Below are positions 6,293-38,072 of a stretch of DNA of 40,212 bases, in pieces. Location: the NCBI GenBank assembly GCA_944376715.1, contig CALWDO010000026.1:1-40212 (forward strand), written 5' to 3'. The DNA comes from an uncultured Lachnoclostridium sp. Its GTDB lineage: Bacteria > Bacillota > Clostridia > Lachnospirales > Lachnospiraceae. Under the pieces are notes generated by a model. That model had not been told where the DNA came from, ran no database searches, and saw only the letters and a list, made by a program, of their open reading frames with translations. Position 1 is the first letter of the stretch; every line of letters begins with the position of its first letter. Made by a program: the position numbers and the translations under genes.

Positions 6293-7231
6293 TTACATAT
6301 TCATCTGTTTTGCAACTTCTGCCGCAAAGTCCTCGTTCTTCTTCTCCAGACCTTCGCCGGTCTCGAAACGTACAAAACCTTTGATCACGATATTGGCATT
6401 GTTAGCCTTTGCAACCTGCGCCACATATGCGGCTACATTCTGCTTTCCATCCTCAGCCTTCACATAAACCTGATCCATCAGGCAGATCTCTTTCAGCTCT
6501 TTGTTCAGACGGCCCATGATCGCGCCGTTGATTACTTTCTCCGGCTTACCGGCCATCTTCGGATCGTTCTCGATCTGAGTCTTAAGGATTTCCAGCTCAT
6601 GCTGTTTATACTCGTCATCTACTTCGCTGTCATAGGTATAGATCGGTTTCAGTGCAGCCACCTGCATAGCCACATTCTTAGCCATCTCTTTGATCTCGTC
6701 GTTGATCACATCTGTCTGTACATCTACCAGCACGCCGATCTTTCCGCCTGCATGGATGTAGGAAGCAATGAATCCGTTCTCCTCTACCACCTGCTGGAAA
6801 CGGCGGATATTCATGTTCTCACCGATCACAGCGATCTGAGCAGCCAGCTCTTCCTTCACGGTCTTGCTGGTGTCTTTTGCCCACGGCTCTGCAAGGAATG
6901 CTTCGATATCCGCCGCGGAAGTATTCAGCGCCTGTGCGGCTACATCTGCCACATAACCGCGGAATTTCTCATTCTTTGCCACGAAATCAGTCTCGGAGTT
7001 TACCTCCACTGCAACTGCTTTCTTCGCGTCTTCAGACAGAGCCGTCGCAACGATACCTTCAGCTGCGATACGGTTTGCCTTCTTCTGAGCGGTAGCCAGT
7101 CCTTTTTCTCTCAGGAAATCTACGGCTGCCTCCATATTTCCATCAGTTGCCGCCAGCGCTTTCTTACAATCCATCATACCTGCGCCGGTTGCTTCTCTTA
7201 ACTCTTTTACCATTGCTGCTGTAATAGCCAT
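6293..7231 (-). CDS. tsf: Translation elongation factor Ts
   Basis: EF-Ts is the guanine nucleotide exchange factor for EF-Tu in the cytosol. The 312-residue protein has the N-terminal UBA-like domain (TAAMVKELREATGAGMMDCKKAL, residues 4-26) and the core motif TDFVAKNE, where the DFVA loop contacts EF-Tu. The ATG at 7231 was chosen because an AGGAGG lies 8 nt upstream, although the frame stays open into rpsB. It follows rpsB by 25 bp, the near-universal rpsB-tsf order, and ends at the bidirectional terminator 6224-6265. Confidence 0.98.
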   Translation of the reverse strand: MAITAAMVKELREATGAGMMDCKKALAATDGNMEAAVDFLREKGLATAQKKANRIAAEGIVATALSEDAKKAVAVEVNSETDFVAKNEKFRGYVADVAAQALNTSAADIEAFLAEPWAKDTSKTVKEELAAQIAVIGENMNIRRFQQVVEENGFIASYIHAGGKIGVLVDVQTDVINDEIKEMAKNVAMQVAALKPIYTYDSEVDDEYKQHELEILKTQIENDPKMAGKPEKVINGAIMGRLNKELKEICLMDQVYVKAEDGKQNVAAYVAQVAKANNANIVIKGFVRFETGEGLEKKNEDFAAEVAKQMNM

Positions 7232-7256
7232 GATTATACTCCTCCTGTGGGATTGA

Positions 7257-7994
7257 TTACTCTGCCTGGATCTCTTCTTCTTCGGACTCCTCGTCCATAG
7301 CTTCCTCTGCTTCGCCCTGTCTAGCCTCGACAACTGCGTCTGCCATCTTGGAAACGATCAGTTTTACCGCGCGAATTGCATCGTCGTTGCCCGGGATCAC
7401 ATAATCCAGTTCTTCCGGATCACAGTTGGTATCGCAGATACCGATCAGCGGGATTCCCAGAGTATGAGCTTCCTGTACGCAGATTCTCTCTTTCTTCGGG
7501 TCTACAACGAAGATCGCATCCGGAAGACCCTTCATCTCTTTGATTCCGCCCAGGTTTTTCTGAAGCTTATCCATCTCTTTTCTCAGAGCGATGACTTCTT
7601 TCTTCGGCAGTACATCAAACGTACCGTCTTCTTCCATTGCCTCGATCTCTTTCAGTCTCTTGATACGGCCCTGGATTGTTTTGAAGTTGGTCAGCATACC
7701 GCCCAGCCATCTCTCATTTACATAGAACATACCGCAGCGCTCAGCCTCGGTCTTGATCGCATCCTGAGCCTGCTTCTTGGTTCCTACGAACAGAATGTTT
7801 CCGCCATTGGCTGCGATGTCTGCCACTGCCTTGTAAGCCTCGTCTACTTTTACTACGGATTTCTGCAGGTCGATGATATAGATACCGTTTCTCTCGGTAT
7901 AGATGTACTCAGCCATTTTCGGGTTCCATCTTCTCGTCTGATGTCCGAAATGTACGCCTGCTTCCAGTAACTGTTTCATTGAAATTACGCTCAT
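7257..7994 (-). CDS. rpsB: 30S ribosomal protein S2
   Basis: Ribosomal protein S2 of the small subunit, 245 residues. [27 protein letters not shown] is the S2 N-terminal signature, and [18 protein letters not shown] and [14 protein letters not shown] are further S2 blocks. The C-terminus is a strongly acidic tail (about 19 residues, mostly Glu). The ATG at 7994 has GGAGG 7 nt upstream; an earlier in-frame ATG (8009) lies at that site itself. Own promoter at 8148-8176, giving a 5' leader of about 145 nt. Confidence 0.98.
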
Positions 7995-25766: not shown

Positions 25767-25880
25767 AAGCATCATGCGAAGTAGAATCCGACGCGTCAAG
25801 TGTCCGTGGATGGGGAGTTGTCACGGGACGAAAAGCCGGACGAGCTTACGATGTCTGATTCGCACCCGTTGCTGCATATG
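25767..25880 (+). ncRNA. Tetrahydrofolate riboswitch
   Basis: The leader of folT matches the class I THF riboswitch. GTAGAATCC begins the aptamer. The GUCCGUG / CACGGGAC helix (P3) closes a loop with ATGGGGAGTTGT. ACGAA follows, and GAATC pairs with the distal GATTC (P2) before CGCACCCGTTGC. A short TACAT-ctcag-ATGTA hairpin and AGGAGG follow; no T-run is seen, so control is probably at translation initiation. The downstream ECF S-component is therefore a folate transporter. Confidence 0.88.
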
Positions 25881-30114: not shown

Positions 30115-31788
30115 TTACTTTGAACTCATTTCTGCATCTGCTTCTTTCAGGTGTTTTACATAGAGTTTCCGGATACCCTCATATTCTCCAAGTCCTTTCA
30201 GGACACAGGAAACCTGAAATCCTTCCGCCTCGAACCGGCTTCTCCAGGAGTCCTCATCATTGCTGGACATGTCGTTGATGGCATGATCTCCGGCGACCAC
30301 CATAAAGGGCGCCAGTCTCACTTTAGTCGCCCCATACGCATGTACCAGCTTCATCAGTGTCTCCAGAGACGGATATGCCTCTACCGTTCCTAAAAACACA
30401 TTGGAATATCCCATATCCTTAAAGCGGTAATCCAGCGCCGCATAAATTGAGTTGGCATAATGTGTTGTACCATGTCCCATAAAAATCAGAGCTTCCCCTT
30501 CCGACAGGTCCTGGTATTCCTCCATCAAAGCATGAACCACTTCTTCAGAATCTTCCTCACTGGTCAGCAGTGGATTTCCAAATACAATCCTGTCAAAACG
30601 TCCCTGAAAAGCCAGCATATCCTGGATCATCCGGTCGTTTTCCACTCCGTTGATTACATGCGTGGGCTGTACCAGCACTTCTGTGATCCCGTCTTCCAGC
30701 ATCCTCTGCGCCGCTTCCGTCACCGTATCAATATGCACGCCGTCCCTTTTCTGGATCTTCCGGATAATCATGCCGCTGGTCCACGCACGGTACAAAGTAC
30801 AGTCCGGAAATGCGCGCCGGATATCGTCTTCTATGACATCGATGGTCTTCTCTCTGGTCTCATTGACACTGGTGCCGAAGCTGACCACCAGTATTCCTTT
30901 CTTGTTTTCTTTATTCATATCCCGTATTCCTCCTGTATATATGGGCCTCTCTGTCCGGGCGATATAATCTTCCAGTGTCTTCAGATTTCTCGGAAAAGGC
31001 AGATCCGCTTTCAGGATTCCTTTCCTGCACAGACTGTCAAACAATTTCAGTGCCGCCGGCTGTTCCAGGTTCGTCATCTCAAGAGCCGTCCGATTGGCAA
31101 AGACCTCTTCCGGACTTCCTGATACAAGCACCTTTCCTTCATGGAACAAAAAGACGTCGTCTGCCCAGCCATAGGCAAAATCCACATCATGAGTAGATAC
31201 CACTACGGTGATCCCTTCTTCCGCCAGCCGGTCCACAATCCGGCGCACCATCCCCGCATGCTTCGGATCCAACGCCGCCGCAGGCTCATCGAAGAAAATG
31301 ACCTCCGGACGCATTACGAGAATATCCGCGATGGATACCTGCTTTTTCTGTCCTCCGCTCAGCGCGTGTACCGGTTTGTGCCGGAAAGGCGTGATCTCCA
31401 GTTCACGTATCACCCGCTCCACTTCCTGTGCCGCTTCTTCATCCGGCACACCGAGATTCAGAATCCCGAAAGAGATCTCCTGATAAACACTGGCTGAAAA
31501 AAGCTGATTTTCCGGATCCTGGAACACGATGCCTACCTTGCGTCTCAGCTCCAGCAATCCCTTCTTATCATAGGATACCGGATTTCCGTCATAATATAAA
31601 GTCCCTTTCTTCGGTTTATGGATTCCGTTGCAGCACAGGAAAAACGTGGATTTCCCCGCTCCGTTGGCTCCCATCAGCGCGATCCTGTGCCCCTTCTTAA
31701 GTTCCAGGGACAAGCCCCGGAGCGCATGAGCTTCTTCTCCGTCATAAGAGAACCACAGATCCTCCGCTTTTATAATCACATCACCCAT
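30115..31788 (-). CDS. cbiO-cbiK: Fusion of cobalt ECF ATPase (CbiO) and sirohydrochlorin cobaltochelatase (CbiK)
   Basis: One frame of 557 residues codes two normally separate proteins. Residues 1-290 are CbiO, the ATPase of the cobalt ECF importer: Walker A GANGAGKST (40-48), Q-loop FQDPENQ, LSGGQ (143-147), Walker B FFDEPAAALD (165-174) and H-loop His 200. Residues 291-557 are a full-length CbiK, which inserts Co2+ into sirohydrochlorin for anaerobic B12 synthesis: GHGTTH (His 439, His 443), Glu 470, and His 502 in AGDHA, in spacing like Salmonella CbiK His145/Glu175/His207. No stop separates them. Met 291 has an AGGAGG 10 nt upstream, so a separate CbiK may also be made. The start overlaps cbiQ by 13 nt. 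Confidence 0.93.
   Translation of the reverse strand: MGDVIIKAEDLWFSYDGEEAHALRGLSLELKKGHRIALMGANGAGKSTFFLCCNGIHKPKKGTLYYDGNPVSYDKKGLLELRRKVGIVFQDPENQLFSASVYQEISFGILNLGVPDEEAAQEVERVIRELEITPFRHKPVHALSGGQKKQVSIADILVMRPEVIFFDEPAAALDPKHAGMVRRIVDRLAEEGITVVVSTHDVDFAYGWADDVFLFHEGKVLVSGSPEEVFANRTALEMTNLEQPAALKLFDSLCRKGILKADLPFPRNLKTLEDYIARTERPIYTGGIRDMNKENKKGILVVSFGTSVNETREKTIDVIEDDIRRAFPDCTLYRAWTSGMIIRKIQKRDGVHIDTVTEAAQRMLEDGITEVLVQPTHVINGVENDRMIQDMLAFQGRFDRIVFGNPLLTSEEDSEEVVHALMEEYQDLSEGEALIFMGHGTTHYANSIYAALDYRFKDMGYSNVFLGTVEAYPSLETLMKLVHAYGATKVRLAPFMVVAGDHAINDMSSNDEDSWRSRFEAEGFQVSCVLKGLGEYEGIRKLYVKHLKEADAEMSSK
30916..30934 (-). promoter_or_regulatory. Internal ribosome-binding site and ATG at the CbiO/CbiK junction
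   Basis: Minus strand: AGGAGG (30934-30929), 10 nt, ATG (30918-30916). The spacing and position suggest an ancestral cbiK start, still usable, inside the fused frame. Confidence 0.6.
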
Positions 31789-32558
31789 CCTGTCAACCTC
31801 CCTGCCAGCAAAATCAAAAGTACAAACTCAAACACGGCAATCGCCGCGATCTCCCGCGCTTTTGGCGGATAATCTTCCTTCAGCACCCGGATTGCCCCAT
31901 CATAACATCTGGCTTCCATAGCGTCGTACAGCGCGTTGGATTTCTTAAACGCCCTCAGAAGAAGCGCGGACGCCATCTGTCCGAAAGAATGATACGCCGT
32001 CCGGAAATCTTTGTTGCCCAGCCTTGCATTCTGCGCCGTCGTTATGGCGGAAGCAATATCCAGGAGAACAAAGATAAACCGGTAGATCAGAAGCATCAGT
32101 TCAATGATCAGTTTTGGGCAGCGGCAATACCCAAGAACGGTCAGAATATCCGTCATAGGTGTGGAAAGGCTCAGGAAATACAGGCAGGAAACTCCGGCCA
32201 GGGCTGTGACGATCAATCTCGCCGCCCTCACAGCTCCCGCGGCGCTTCCCGTTATATACCATTCTCCAACAGGCACTGCGAAAAGATCCAGCGGCGTCCC
32301 GGACAGATTAACCGCAATCGCCAGTGTACTGAGTACGAGAAATCCCAGAGGCCACAGAAGCATTTTCCCATAACGCGAGAAAGGGAGCCCTCCCTTTCTT
32401 ACGGTCAGGACCCCCATCGCTGCCAGAACTGCCGCCGAAATCACAAAGGATTGCCCCGCGATACAAATCAGCAGCGTAATGACTGCCAGTGCAAATTTTT
32501 CCGAAGCATTGACATAGCGCAGTCTGCTTGCATAACAGAATTTATCGATTGCTATCAT
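31776..32558 (-). CDS. cbiQ: Cobalt ECF transporter T component CbiQ
   Basis: CbiQ is the transmembrane coupling protein of the cobalt ECF importer. The 260-residue protein has about five helices and the two ATPase-contacting motifs of T components: AQNARLGN and AMEARCYDG (the Ala-Arg coupling helices). The start overlaps cbiN by 17 nt and its end overlaps the ATPase gene by 13 nt, so all are co-translated. Confidence 0.94.
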   Translation of the reverse strand: MIAIDKFCYASRLRYVNASEKFALAVITLLICIAGQSFVISAAVLAAMGVLTVRKGGLPFSRYGKMLLWPLGFLVLSTLAIAVNLSGTPLDLFAVPVGEWYITGSAAGAVRAARLIVTALAGVSCLYFLSLSTPMTDILTVLGYCRCPKLIIELMLLIYRFIFVLLDIASAITTAQNARLGNKDFRTAYHSFGQMASALLLRAFKKSNALYDAMEARCYDGAIRVLKEDYPPKAREIAAIAVFEFVLLILLAGRLTGWVM

Positions 32559-32877
32559 GTCCGTCTGCTTCCTTTTTCATCCATTTCTTCCGTTCTACGA
32601 GCCGTCCCATACAGAACGCAATGATGCCGACTCCGATTCCCGTCTGGATGCAGAAAAAGAGACTCTCTACCTCTCCGGGAAGTTCACCGCCAATCGCGGA
32701 TTCCAGCACCGGCGTGAACCAGGGCTCGTACTCGCCTCCCGTGATCTCTTTCACCATCACCGACCCTGCGTCATCGGACCCGCCGAACTGTGCGCCTCTT
32801 AAGGCAAACAGAGGCACTGCTGCGATCAGTACAACGGCCAGGATCAATACCAATACCGTCTTCGTATTTTTCGTCAT
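32542..32877 (-). CDS. cbiN: Cobalt ECF transporter subunit CbiN
   Basis: CbiN is the small membrane subunit that helps load Co2+ into CbiM. It has 111 residues: a first helix (8-26), an extracytoplasmic loop with GGSDDAGSVMVKEITGGEYEPWFTPV, and a second helix (about 78-95). The loop GGSDD-(x)n-PWF pattern is typical. One base separates it from cbiM, and GGGGAGG precedes the ATG. Confidence 0.92.
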   Translation of the reverse strand: MTKNTKTVLVLILAVVLIAAVPLFALRGAQFGGSDDAGSVMVKEITGGEYEPWFTPVLESAIGGELPGEVESLFFCIQTGIGVGIIAFCMGRLVERKKWMKKEADGHDSNR

Positions 32878-32878
32878 T

Positions 32879-33631
32879 CTACTTTTCCTCCCCGATAAAA
32901 CGAAGTTCTTTTAGTTCCGGGCTCGCATAAGCCTCCAGGCCGATCATAACCGCCACCGTGATCAGCCCCTCGATCACTGCCAGCGGGATCTGCGTCGGAG
33001 CGAATACTCCCAGGAATTTTATCAGGGAAGCTCCTATTCCGCCTGCCTCGGAAGGATAGCAGATGGCAAGCTGGAAACTGGTCACGCAGTATGTAAACAG
33101 GTCTCCCAGCGCCGCCGCCAGGAAGATGCCCACTCTCCGGTTCACATGGCATTTCTTCAGTAGCCAGAATACGCCGTAGGAAACAAACGGGCCGGCAATC
33201 GCCATGGAAAATGTGTTAGCCCCAAGAGTGGTCAGCCCTCCATGAGCGAGGAGCATCGCCTGAAACAGCAGGACGATGATTCCCAGTACAGATACCGCCG
33301 CCGGGCCAAAAAGGAGCGCCCCAAGCCCTGTCCCTGTCATATGGGAACAACTTCCCGATATTACCGACGGAATCTTCAGAGAGGAGATCACAAAGATAAA
33401 CGCGCCCGACATGGCGAGCAGGATCACAGTCTTTCGATGTTCATTCATGGTTCTGCGTATGGAAAAGAATCCCGCCGCCAGAAACGGAATGCAGAGGATT
33501 CCCCAAATTACACAATACTGTACCGGCAGATAGCCCTCCATAATATGCATGGCATTGGCCGCCGGAGCAATCCCGAAAGTAAGGGCAAACACAGCCGCCA
33601 GAGCCACTGTTCTTTTTTCTGTCTTTTTCAT
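32879..33631 (-). CDS. cbiM: Cobalt ECF transporter S component CbiM
   Basis: CbiM binds Co2+ at its processed N-terminus. The 250 residues start with a signal peptide (1-27, ending ANA) and then MHIMEGYLP; cleavage after Ala 27 would expose Met-His-Ile, whose amine, His and backbone bind the metal. Further motifs are SGSCSHMTGTGLGALLFGP and LAHGGLTTLGANTFSM. First gene of cbiMNQ(O-K). GGAGG is 13 nt before the ATG, rather far. Promoter at 33670-33698. Confidence 0.94.
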   Translation of the reverse strand: MKKTEKRTVALAAVFALTFGIAPAANAMHIMEGYLPVQYCVIWGILCIPFLAAGFFSIRRTMNEHRKTVILLAMSGAFIFVISSLKIPSVISGSCSHMTGTGLGALLFGPAAVSVLGIIVLLFQAMLLAHGGLTTLGANTFSMAIAGPFVSYGVFWLLKKCHVNRRVGIFLAAALGDLFTYCVTSFQLAICYPSEAGGIGASLIKFLGVFAPTQIPLAVIEGLITVAVMIGLEAYASPELKELRFIGEEK

Positions 33632-33669
33632 TCTGTCTTAATTTCCTCCGTTCTTTCGCAACTGATAGC

Positions 33670-33698
33670 ATTTTATCATTAATTCCGGTAAAAGTCCA
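33670..33698 (-). promoter_or_regulatory. cbiM operon promoter (TGGACT-17-TAAAAT)
   Basis: Minus strand: TGGACT (33698-33693), 17 bp, TAAAAT (33675-33670). The leader to the cbiM ATG would be only about 32 nt, too short for a cobalamin riboswitch. Confidence 0.5.
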
Positions 33699-33704
33699 TG
33701 TGCG

Positions 33705-33727
33705 AGATATAATATATTGTTATATCT
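33705..33727. promoter_or_regulatory. Inverted repeat AGATATAA-N7-TTATATCT, candidate operator
   Basis: A perfect 8-bp inverted repeat with 7-bp spacer just upstream of the cbiM -35 and 42 bp before the DUF6465 promoter. It could bind a metal-responsive dimer. Confidence 0.4.
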
Positions 33728-33768
33728 TGATTCATCTCCCGCAAAAATTAGGCTTCCGGCAGAATTTA

Positions 33769-33797
33769 TTGACAAATTCATTTTTTCTTTCTATAAT
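33769..33797 (+). promoter_or_regulatory. Perfect consensus promoter of DUF6465 gene (TTGACA-17-TATAAT)
   Basis: TTGACA (33769-33774), a 17-bp spacer and TATAAT (33792-33797) match both consensus hexamers in full, the strongest promoter in the window by eye. The leader is about 60 nt and ends with GAGGAGGAAATG. Confidence 0.88.
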
Positions 33798-33862
33798 CAT
33801 GTATGACCGAAATGCTTAGACATCTTAGGATTTTTATATGAGTTTTGAGGAGGAAATGAAAA

Positions 33863-34174
33863 ATGGCAAGACCAAAAAAAGCCACTACGGCTGCTGCAGC
33901 CGCACCGGCAAAGGCCGCTGAGACAAAAGCTGCTGCCACGACCGAGAAAAAGGCAGCTCCGAGAAAGACTTGCAAAACTTCTGTATGCGTAGAGATGAAC
34001 GGCTTAAGCGTTGCTGTTACCGATATCCAGAACGCAGTGAAGAAAGCGGTAAAAGATCAGGGCTTGGAAGCTTCTGAACTGAAAATCTACGTAAACGCCC
34101 AGGAACAGGCTGCTTACTATACCGTAGACGGAGAGGGCGGACAGACCTATAAAGTAGATCTGAAGACCTTATAA
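33863..34174 (+). CDS. DUF6465 family small protein with Ala/Lys-rich N-terminus
   Basis: This 103-residue protein has no known function. Residues 1-35 are low-complexity Ala, Lys, Thr and Pro (PKKA, AAPAKAAETKAAA), like basic tails of histone-like proteins. Residues 36-103 form a small folded domain beginning CKTSVCVEMNGLSVAVTDIQNAVKKAVKDQGL and ending YTVDGEGGQTYKVDL; two Cys lie close together (CKTSVC). GGAGG lies 9 nt upstream. It is a single-gene unit with a consensus promoter and its own terminator, so it is probably abundant. Confidence 0.8.
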   Translation: MARPKKATTAAAAAPAKAAETKAAATTEKKAAPRKTCKTSVCVEMNGLSVAVTDIQNAVKKAVKDQGLEASELKIYVNAQEQAAYYTVDGEGGQTYKVDLKTL

Positions 34175-37942: not shown

Positions 37943-37950
37943 AAAAGAAA

Positions 37951-38040
37951 GAGCTGCACGACTGGCGGAAAGCAGGATATCCTGTGGTAGGGAAACCTAC
38001 AGGGAGTGCAGATCATTAAGAAAGCCGACCGCCTGGGCGC
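37951..38040 (+). ncRNA. ZTP riboswitch (pfl motif)
   Basis: The ZTP/ZMP aptamer is recognised by GCACGACTGGCGG at its start and GCCGACCGCCTGGGC at its end, the hallmark of the pfl motif. CTGCAC (37954-37959) pairs with GTGCAG (38006-38011) as P1; between them is a TGTAGGTTTC-type hairpin. The 3' GCC(GACCGCC) strand forms the pseudoknot with the GGCGG loop when ligand binds. It leads into a terminator, so ligand turns expression on. Confidence 0.92.
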
Positions 38041-38072
38041 ATGCAGAATCTGCCTGCGTTCAGGCGGTTTTT
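38029..38072 (+). terminator. Riboswitch-controlled intrinsic terminator
   Basis: CCGCCTG (38029-38035) pairs with CAGGCGG (38061-38067), with inner CGCA/TGCG and GCAG/CTGC pairs and loop aat, then TTTTT (38068-38072). The CCGCC arm is part of the ZTP aptamer, so binding and terminator exclude each other. Confidence 0.9.

Follow-up and report, generated by a model that had tools for sequence, protein, structure and literature searches.

The cbiO-cbiK fusion gene and its operon

The 40,212-nt stretch of Lachnoclostridium DNA analysed here (hereafter the window) carries on its minus strand, at positions 30115-31788, a single intact gene in which a CbiO ATPase and a class II cobaltochelatase (CbiK) are both complete. 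This gene, named cbiOK below, starts at an ATG and comprises 557 codons (557 aa) in a frame without a stop. An earlier note on this DNA had placed one uninterrupted CbiO-CbiK frame at these coordinates, correctly though without stating the strand, and had listed complete CbiO motifs and four catalytic residues of CbiK, all of which were found. The CbiO domain (residues 1-278; 30955-31788, minus strand) scores above the cut-offs of Pfam ABC_tran (residues 23-170, E = 3.5e-30) and TIGR01166 cbiO (232.5 bits against 211.8), and matches PDB 3gfo with an E-value of 1.6e-71. It contains the CbiO motifs GANGAGKS (40-47), VFQDP (88-92), LSGGQ (143-147), VIFFDE (163-168) and STHD (198-201). The CbiK domain (residues 294-557; 30118-30909, minus strand) matches PF06180 over residues 297-550, spanning profile positions 1-260 of 262 (E = 5.4e-86; 288.6 bits against a cut-off of 26.2), and PDB 1qgo with an E-value of 4.9e-65. 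His439, His443, Glu470 and His502 are all present in it. In the alignment with Salmonella CbiK (1qgo), His439 and His502 correspond to His145 and His207, the pair of active-site histidines given in PMC7689651. The NCBIfam CbiK equivalog NF047852 was matched at E = 1e-82, its cut-off not being reached (277.6 bits against 400); judged by its E-value, the domain is by a wide margin a relative of that family, not one named by its rule. The domain has in common with the class II sirohydrochlorin cobaltochelatase CbiK of Salmonella (1qgo, 2xwp) its full length and both catalytic histidines, and differs from it in being joined behind an ABC ATPase and in staying below the equivalog cut-off.

The two domains are connected by a linker of conserved length at about residues 279-293 (30910-30954, minus strand), including a Thr-Gly-Gly that reads a ribosome-binding site in frame. 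AlphaFold2 predicted two well-formed domains (mean pLDDT 84.8, pTM 0.55) and gave pLDDT values below 50 at residues 281-293; the linker is flexible in this model, which together with its conserved length would allow a CbiK to hang from each CbiO.

The fusion gene is the last of an operon with the order cbiM-cbiN-cbiQ-cbiOK, all on the minus strand: cbiM, for the substrate-specific S component (32879-33631; PF01891, and TIGR00123 above cut-off), cbiN (32542-32877; PF02553) and cbiQ, for the transmembrane T component (31776-32558; PF02361, and TIGR02454 above cut-off), which shares 13 nt with the start of cbiOK. Seventy-three nucleotides downstream of cbiOK lies a MATE transporter gene on the same strand. 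On the other side, a divergent DUF6465 gene (33863-34174, plus strand; PF20069) served as a fixed neighbour for locus comparison; a perfect TTGACA-17-TATAAT promoter match is located upstream of it at 33769-33797. Elsewhere in the window there are two ordinary riboswitches: one of the THF class at 25775-25873, upstream of a folate-type ECF S component, and one of the ZMP/ZTP class at 37948-38045, before 38041.

The order cbiM, N, Q, O is common to the window and the CbiMNQO cobalt ECF transporter (PDB 3gfo, 5x3x, 5x40), and the window encodes a CbiO with all its motifs alongside cbiM, cbiN and cbiQ, with CbiM and CbiQ above their family cut-offs. CbiO is predicted to transport cobalt with CbiMNQ. 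What sets the window apart is that its CbiO bears a C-terminal CbiK and that the operon has no separate cbiO. Adjacent but unfused cbiMNQO-cbiK operons, such as those of L041 (Clostridium cibarium), L196 and L203, have the same genes in the same order; there, unlike in the window, a stop codon and a spacer separate cbiO from cbiK.

Distribution of the fusion

Altogether, 39 distinct fused proteins were found in 39 genomes from 14 genera of one family; among cbiK genes that are not fused, 15 distinct ones adjoin cbiO and 155 stand elsewhere. A first draw from the family comprised 299 genomes, one per genus code, 166 of which had a CbiK-like match at E ≤ 1e-30, and the fusion was present in at least 12 of these 166, the window's own genome included, with lower-ranking matches among those listed being judged by frame length alone. 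In a second draw of 397 genomes, mostly the same ones, the fusion was present in 16 of the 64 with a match at E ≤ 1e-85 (the DNA was checked for 63, and G812 was assessed by frame length only). Within the window's own genus, 16 of 17 genomes matched at E ≤ 1e-75, three of them fused and 13 unfused. In the genus of G028 all 20 genomes carry the fusion (two on contig ends), and in that of G271 five of six genomes matched and all five matches were fused; the genera of G133, G250 and G179 comprise one genome each, and the genus of G237 two genomes with one match. A draw of 391 genomes from the class gave 36 with a match at E ≤ 1e-65, and, the window's own genome aside, none of the other 35 was fused (29 of these checked in DNA). 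Finally, the 80 best named loci included two fusions, L039 (Lachnoclostridium sp. An196) and L040, and 78 unfused genes; L039 and L040 are conspecific with own-genus genomes already counted, their CbiK being identical. The CbiO-CbiK fusion occurs in some gut bacteria. A second, different fusion of CbiK was seen in the same family, where genome G059 encodes CbiH and CbiK in one frame of 523 residues (L207, about 6389-7885, minus strand).

The draft assembly of the window genome, in 79 contigs, is 88% complete, and a stand-alone cbiK predominates in its genus, features that would also suit an assembly or sequencing error. Such an error is ruled out for practical purposes by the same open frame in L039 and L040 (97% and 91% in their best segments) and by 36 further distinct fused proteins. 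Nor do relatives all have two separate genes, which according to the earlier note would speak against the fusion: 39 fused proteins were found, although in the own genus only three of the 16 matched genomes are fused. No report of a CbiO-CbiK fusion was found in the literature searched, which covered a minority of subscription papers, nor is one mentioned in the accessible parts of PMC7689651, PMC2667541 and PMC8123684. Domain databases may nevertheless list the architecture.

A probable internal start at the junction

An AGGAGG motif (30929-30934, minus strand) lies 10 nt upstream of the ATG codon of Met291 (30916-30918, minus strand), from which a free CbiK of 267 aa could be translated. The earlier note had proposed an internal start at this point, and the comparison of the fused genes strengthens the proposal: at the junction, 29 of the 39 fusions have GGAGG or AGGAG 3-12 nt upstream of an in-frame ATG, GTG or TTG, whereas only 25 of the 1101 other in-frame ATG, GTG and TTG codons in the same 39 genes have GGAGG or AGGAG at that distance. 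The spacing at the junction is 10 nt in 28 of the 29 cases and 7 nt in one. The Gly-Gly pair that reads the motif in frame occurs in 30 fusions. Its first codon is GGA in all 30, while the second is GGA in 22, GGT in seven and GGG in one; the third base of the first Gly codon falls inside GGAGG, whereas the second Gly codon has its third base beyond the motif. Five codons downstream of the first Gly, the codon is GTG in 13, ATG in nine and TTG in six of these fusions (28 of 30 in total), with GAA and ATT once each, although TTG makes up just 7% of the Leu codons and GTG 30% of the Val codons in the fused genes. Across a tree built from the 39 proteins, the start codons interchange at least six times, the first Gly codon does not change and the second changes five times. 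Since the members of the fusion set are related by descent, the raw counts overstate their independence.

Two column controls gave a concordant picture. Start codons occupy the site in 28 of the 29 rows with Met, Val, Leu or Ile, compared with a mean of 24% over 81 mixed columns, and the sole column with a higher share is that of Met340, a mixed column with nearly all ATG. Likewise, GGA reaches 100% at Gly286 compared with a mean of 42% over 33 Gly columns, no other of which reaches 71%. The window gene differs from L040 in one of the seven codons at 285-291 and in 200 of 504 over the gene; by itself, the site in the window lineage, with its three species, is too young to prove constraint. Across the whole set, by contrast, the AGGAGG before Met291 is more than chance would be expected to leave, and the combination of a Shine-Dalgarno motif and a start codon is conserved across species (29 of 39, with the above controls). 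The earlier claim that the join lies at a former gene boundary is also supported.

The signals are missing in 10 of the 39 fusions (L013, L017, L019, L021, L208-L211, L233 and L237), and the change between internal start kept and lost takes four steps on the tree of the 39 proteins. This loss would be in keeping with an explanation in which the fused protein alone is made and the Shine-Dalgarno motif and start codon are leftovers of a formerly separate cbiK. So would the observation that genomes G258, G021, G271 and G150, which are without the signals, show one CbiK-like match each (E ≤ 1e-30); the tethered form therefore seems to be enough there, which suggests that a tethered CbiK works. Retention in 29 fusions, however, would be unexpected for mere leftovers, as would interchange among ATG, GTG and TTG and the constancy of the first GGA next to a second Gly codon that varies, and we regard this explanation as unlikely. 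Another possibility is that the in-frame GGAGG, which sits exactly within the linker, slows ribosomes between the two domains for folding and is not an initiation site; this would leave the start codons 10 nt downstream in 28 of 30 fusions unexplained and is considered very improbable. Folding of the mRNA over the internal site indicated no structure (z = +1.39; 186 of 200 shuffled sequences fold equally well or better).

Given the retention in 29 of 39 fusions, the interchange of start codons and the invariant first GGA, one gene probably gives both a tethered and a free CbiK. The second start seems real but is perhaps weak, because the 10-nt spacing is rare in stand-alone and adjacent cbiK genes (3 of 29 GGAGG cases, 7 nt being the commonest) and because these genes usually start with ATG (44 of 47), GTG and TTG being rarer than at the internal site. 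The earlier note had further suggested an ECF complex with mixed subunits. This does not follow, since the second start would free CbiK and not CbiO: nothing in cbiOK makes free CbiO, and every CbiO would carry a CbiK.

Bacterial genes with an in-frame internal start give a full and a short product. The cbiOK gene resembles this class in having a Shine-Dalgarno motif and a start codon within a long frame, and differs in that its signals seem to derive from a former gene boundary. On internal starts in fused genes, nothing relevant was found in the literature searched. The fusions form a clean series suggesting that the original start of a downstream gene can go on being used after fusion, one gene yielding two products, and the same series shows the outcome when that internal start is lost. 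One genome, G731, has a divergent fused CbiK without internal start as well as a stand-alone CbiK (L237, L238).

Origin of the window operon and possible role of the tether

The two halves of cbiOK have different nearest relatives. The window CbiK and its two sisters group with 12 stand-alone CbiKs, all from the own genus (SH-aLRT 98), with a 13th own-genus stand-alone CbiK on a long branch outside that group; the CbiK of L042 is identical to that of own-genus genome G309. For the window CbiO, the closest branch is the fused CbiO of G731 (97/95), followed by a set with 22 fused members and one unfused (90/84). An AU test on 89 of 131 rows, from which near copies and far or long rows had been omitted beforehand, rejected one common origin for the fused CbiK domains as a whole (p = 4.8e-6). 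Identities over 14 blocks gave no clear recombination break within the CbiK domain: own-genus rows lead most blocks, and fused rows from other genera lead or tie in some.

Gene neighbourhoods connect the window with the stand-alone loci of its genus. The DUF6465 gene, detected by tblastn, lies beside a stand-alone cbiK in four own-genus loci (L169, L172, L173 and L174), and in L169 the DUF6465 and cbiK alignments are 280 nt apart, compared with the 2921 nt holding cbiMNQO in the window. In L172-L174, L176 and L178, cbiK also has the window's folate-type transporter gene as a neighbour. No CbiO remnants, which would point to an earlier fusion at these loci, were seen by eye upstream of stand-alone cbiK in three frames at the 13 own-genus loci and some others. 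A cobalamin riboswitch (RF00174) is absent upstream of cbiM in the window (intergenic region 33632-33862), L039 and L040, and is absent from every own-genus stand-alone cbiK locus tested (10 of the 13), while it precedes cbiM in all 13 other fused operons tested (one per other genus) and in all five adjacent unfused cbiO-cbiK operons tested. The window operon looks secondarily assembled, because its CbiK is own-genus-like, its CbiO resembles that of fused operons in other genera, and the cobalamin riboswitch is lacking. The fused operon of this lineage was thus probably put together at a resident cbiK locus, most simply by insertion, ahead of the resident cbiK, of a transporter block that may have brought a fused cbiK with it. 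The reverse, with the other own-genus species having lost cbiMNQO, may also have happened.

The same genome has an anaerobic B12 pathway, contig C19 encoding CbiL, CbiH, CbiJ-CbiE-CbiT, CbiD, CbiP, CobD, CobT, HemC-CobA, CbiG and a CbiA-type protein and carrying a cobalamin riboswitch. Two of these are fused frames on the minus strand, CbiJ-CbiE-CbiT of 677 aa (L202:2974-5007) and HemC-CobA of 797 aa (L202:11817-14210). No cbiK was found among CbiK-like matches on this contig. The sole other CbiK-like match in the genome (L201:6315-7631, minus strand, contig C2) lies beside a FecCD-type transporter, with FeoB nearby. From what we take to be a lipobox, its product is a predicted lipoprotein, and it is close to the FetB family (heme-binding FetB, 9b86). 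As the B12 genes include no cbiK and the other match is a FetB-like predicted lipoprotein, cbiOK is likely the cobaltochelatase of this genome.

We therefore favour, as a fairly probable reading, a bifunctional cbiOK product on the importer, made in a tethered and a free form and catching cobalt early, with the window operon assembled at a resident cbiK locus. The gene would encode the ATPase component of the cobalt importer CbiMNQO, extended at the C terminus by a flexible linker and a sirohydrochlorin cobaltochelatase. Ribosomes starting at the first ATG would make the tethered form, and those starting at Met291, by means of a Shine-Dalgarno motif now read in frame as Gly-Gly, the free CbiK. 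Because the CbiMQO complex contains two CbiO, as described in PMC7689651, two chelatases would sit on the cytoplasmic side of every importer, and entering cobalt would on that account meet sirohydrochlorin early. The tether might hand cobalt over to the chelatase, the channelling that the earlier note had proposed, and the free CbiK would serve the remaining pool. Such an arrangement bears on how cells steer scarce cobalt to B12 rather than to other metal sites, and a natural importer-chelatase tether in 14 genera, beside relatives with the parts unfused, makes this question directly testable. A bolder version, which we put forward tentatively and think rather unlikely as a whole, is that importer and chelatase together make up a two-part machine for catching cobalt at entry, the dose of tethered and free CbiK being set by the ribosome-binding site within the coding sequence; in the window lineage, this machine would have been rebuilt when the cbiMNQO(K) block of a fused, riboswitch-bearing operon landed before the resident stand-alone cbiK, so that the tether was gained and the B12 feedback lost.

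The join could also be neutral, two operon genes of the same pathway having lost a stop codon and the tether bringing no benefit, since the free CbiK would do the work. The fusion label takes 10 changes on the CbiK tree and five on the CbiO tree, so that gain and loss of the fusion seem easy; the 15 distinct adjacent unfused cbiO-cbiK operons and the joining of CbiK to CbiH in one genome are likewise in line with a neutral join. We consider it a substantial possibility, though less likely than not; two observations speak against it: the fusion is kept throughout the genus with 20 genomes, and in 38 of the 39 fusions 21-23 residues lie between the CbiO tail motif and the CbiK core, even where the internal start has been lost.
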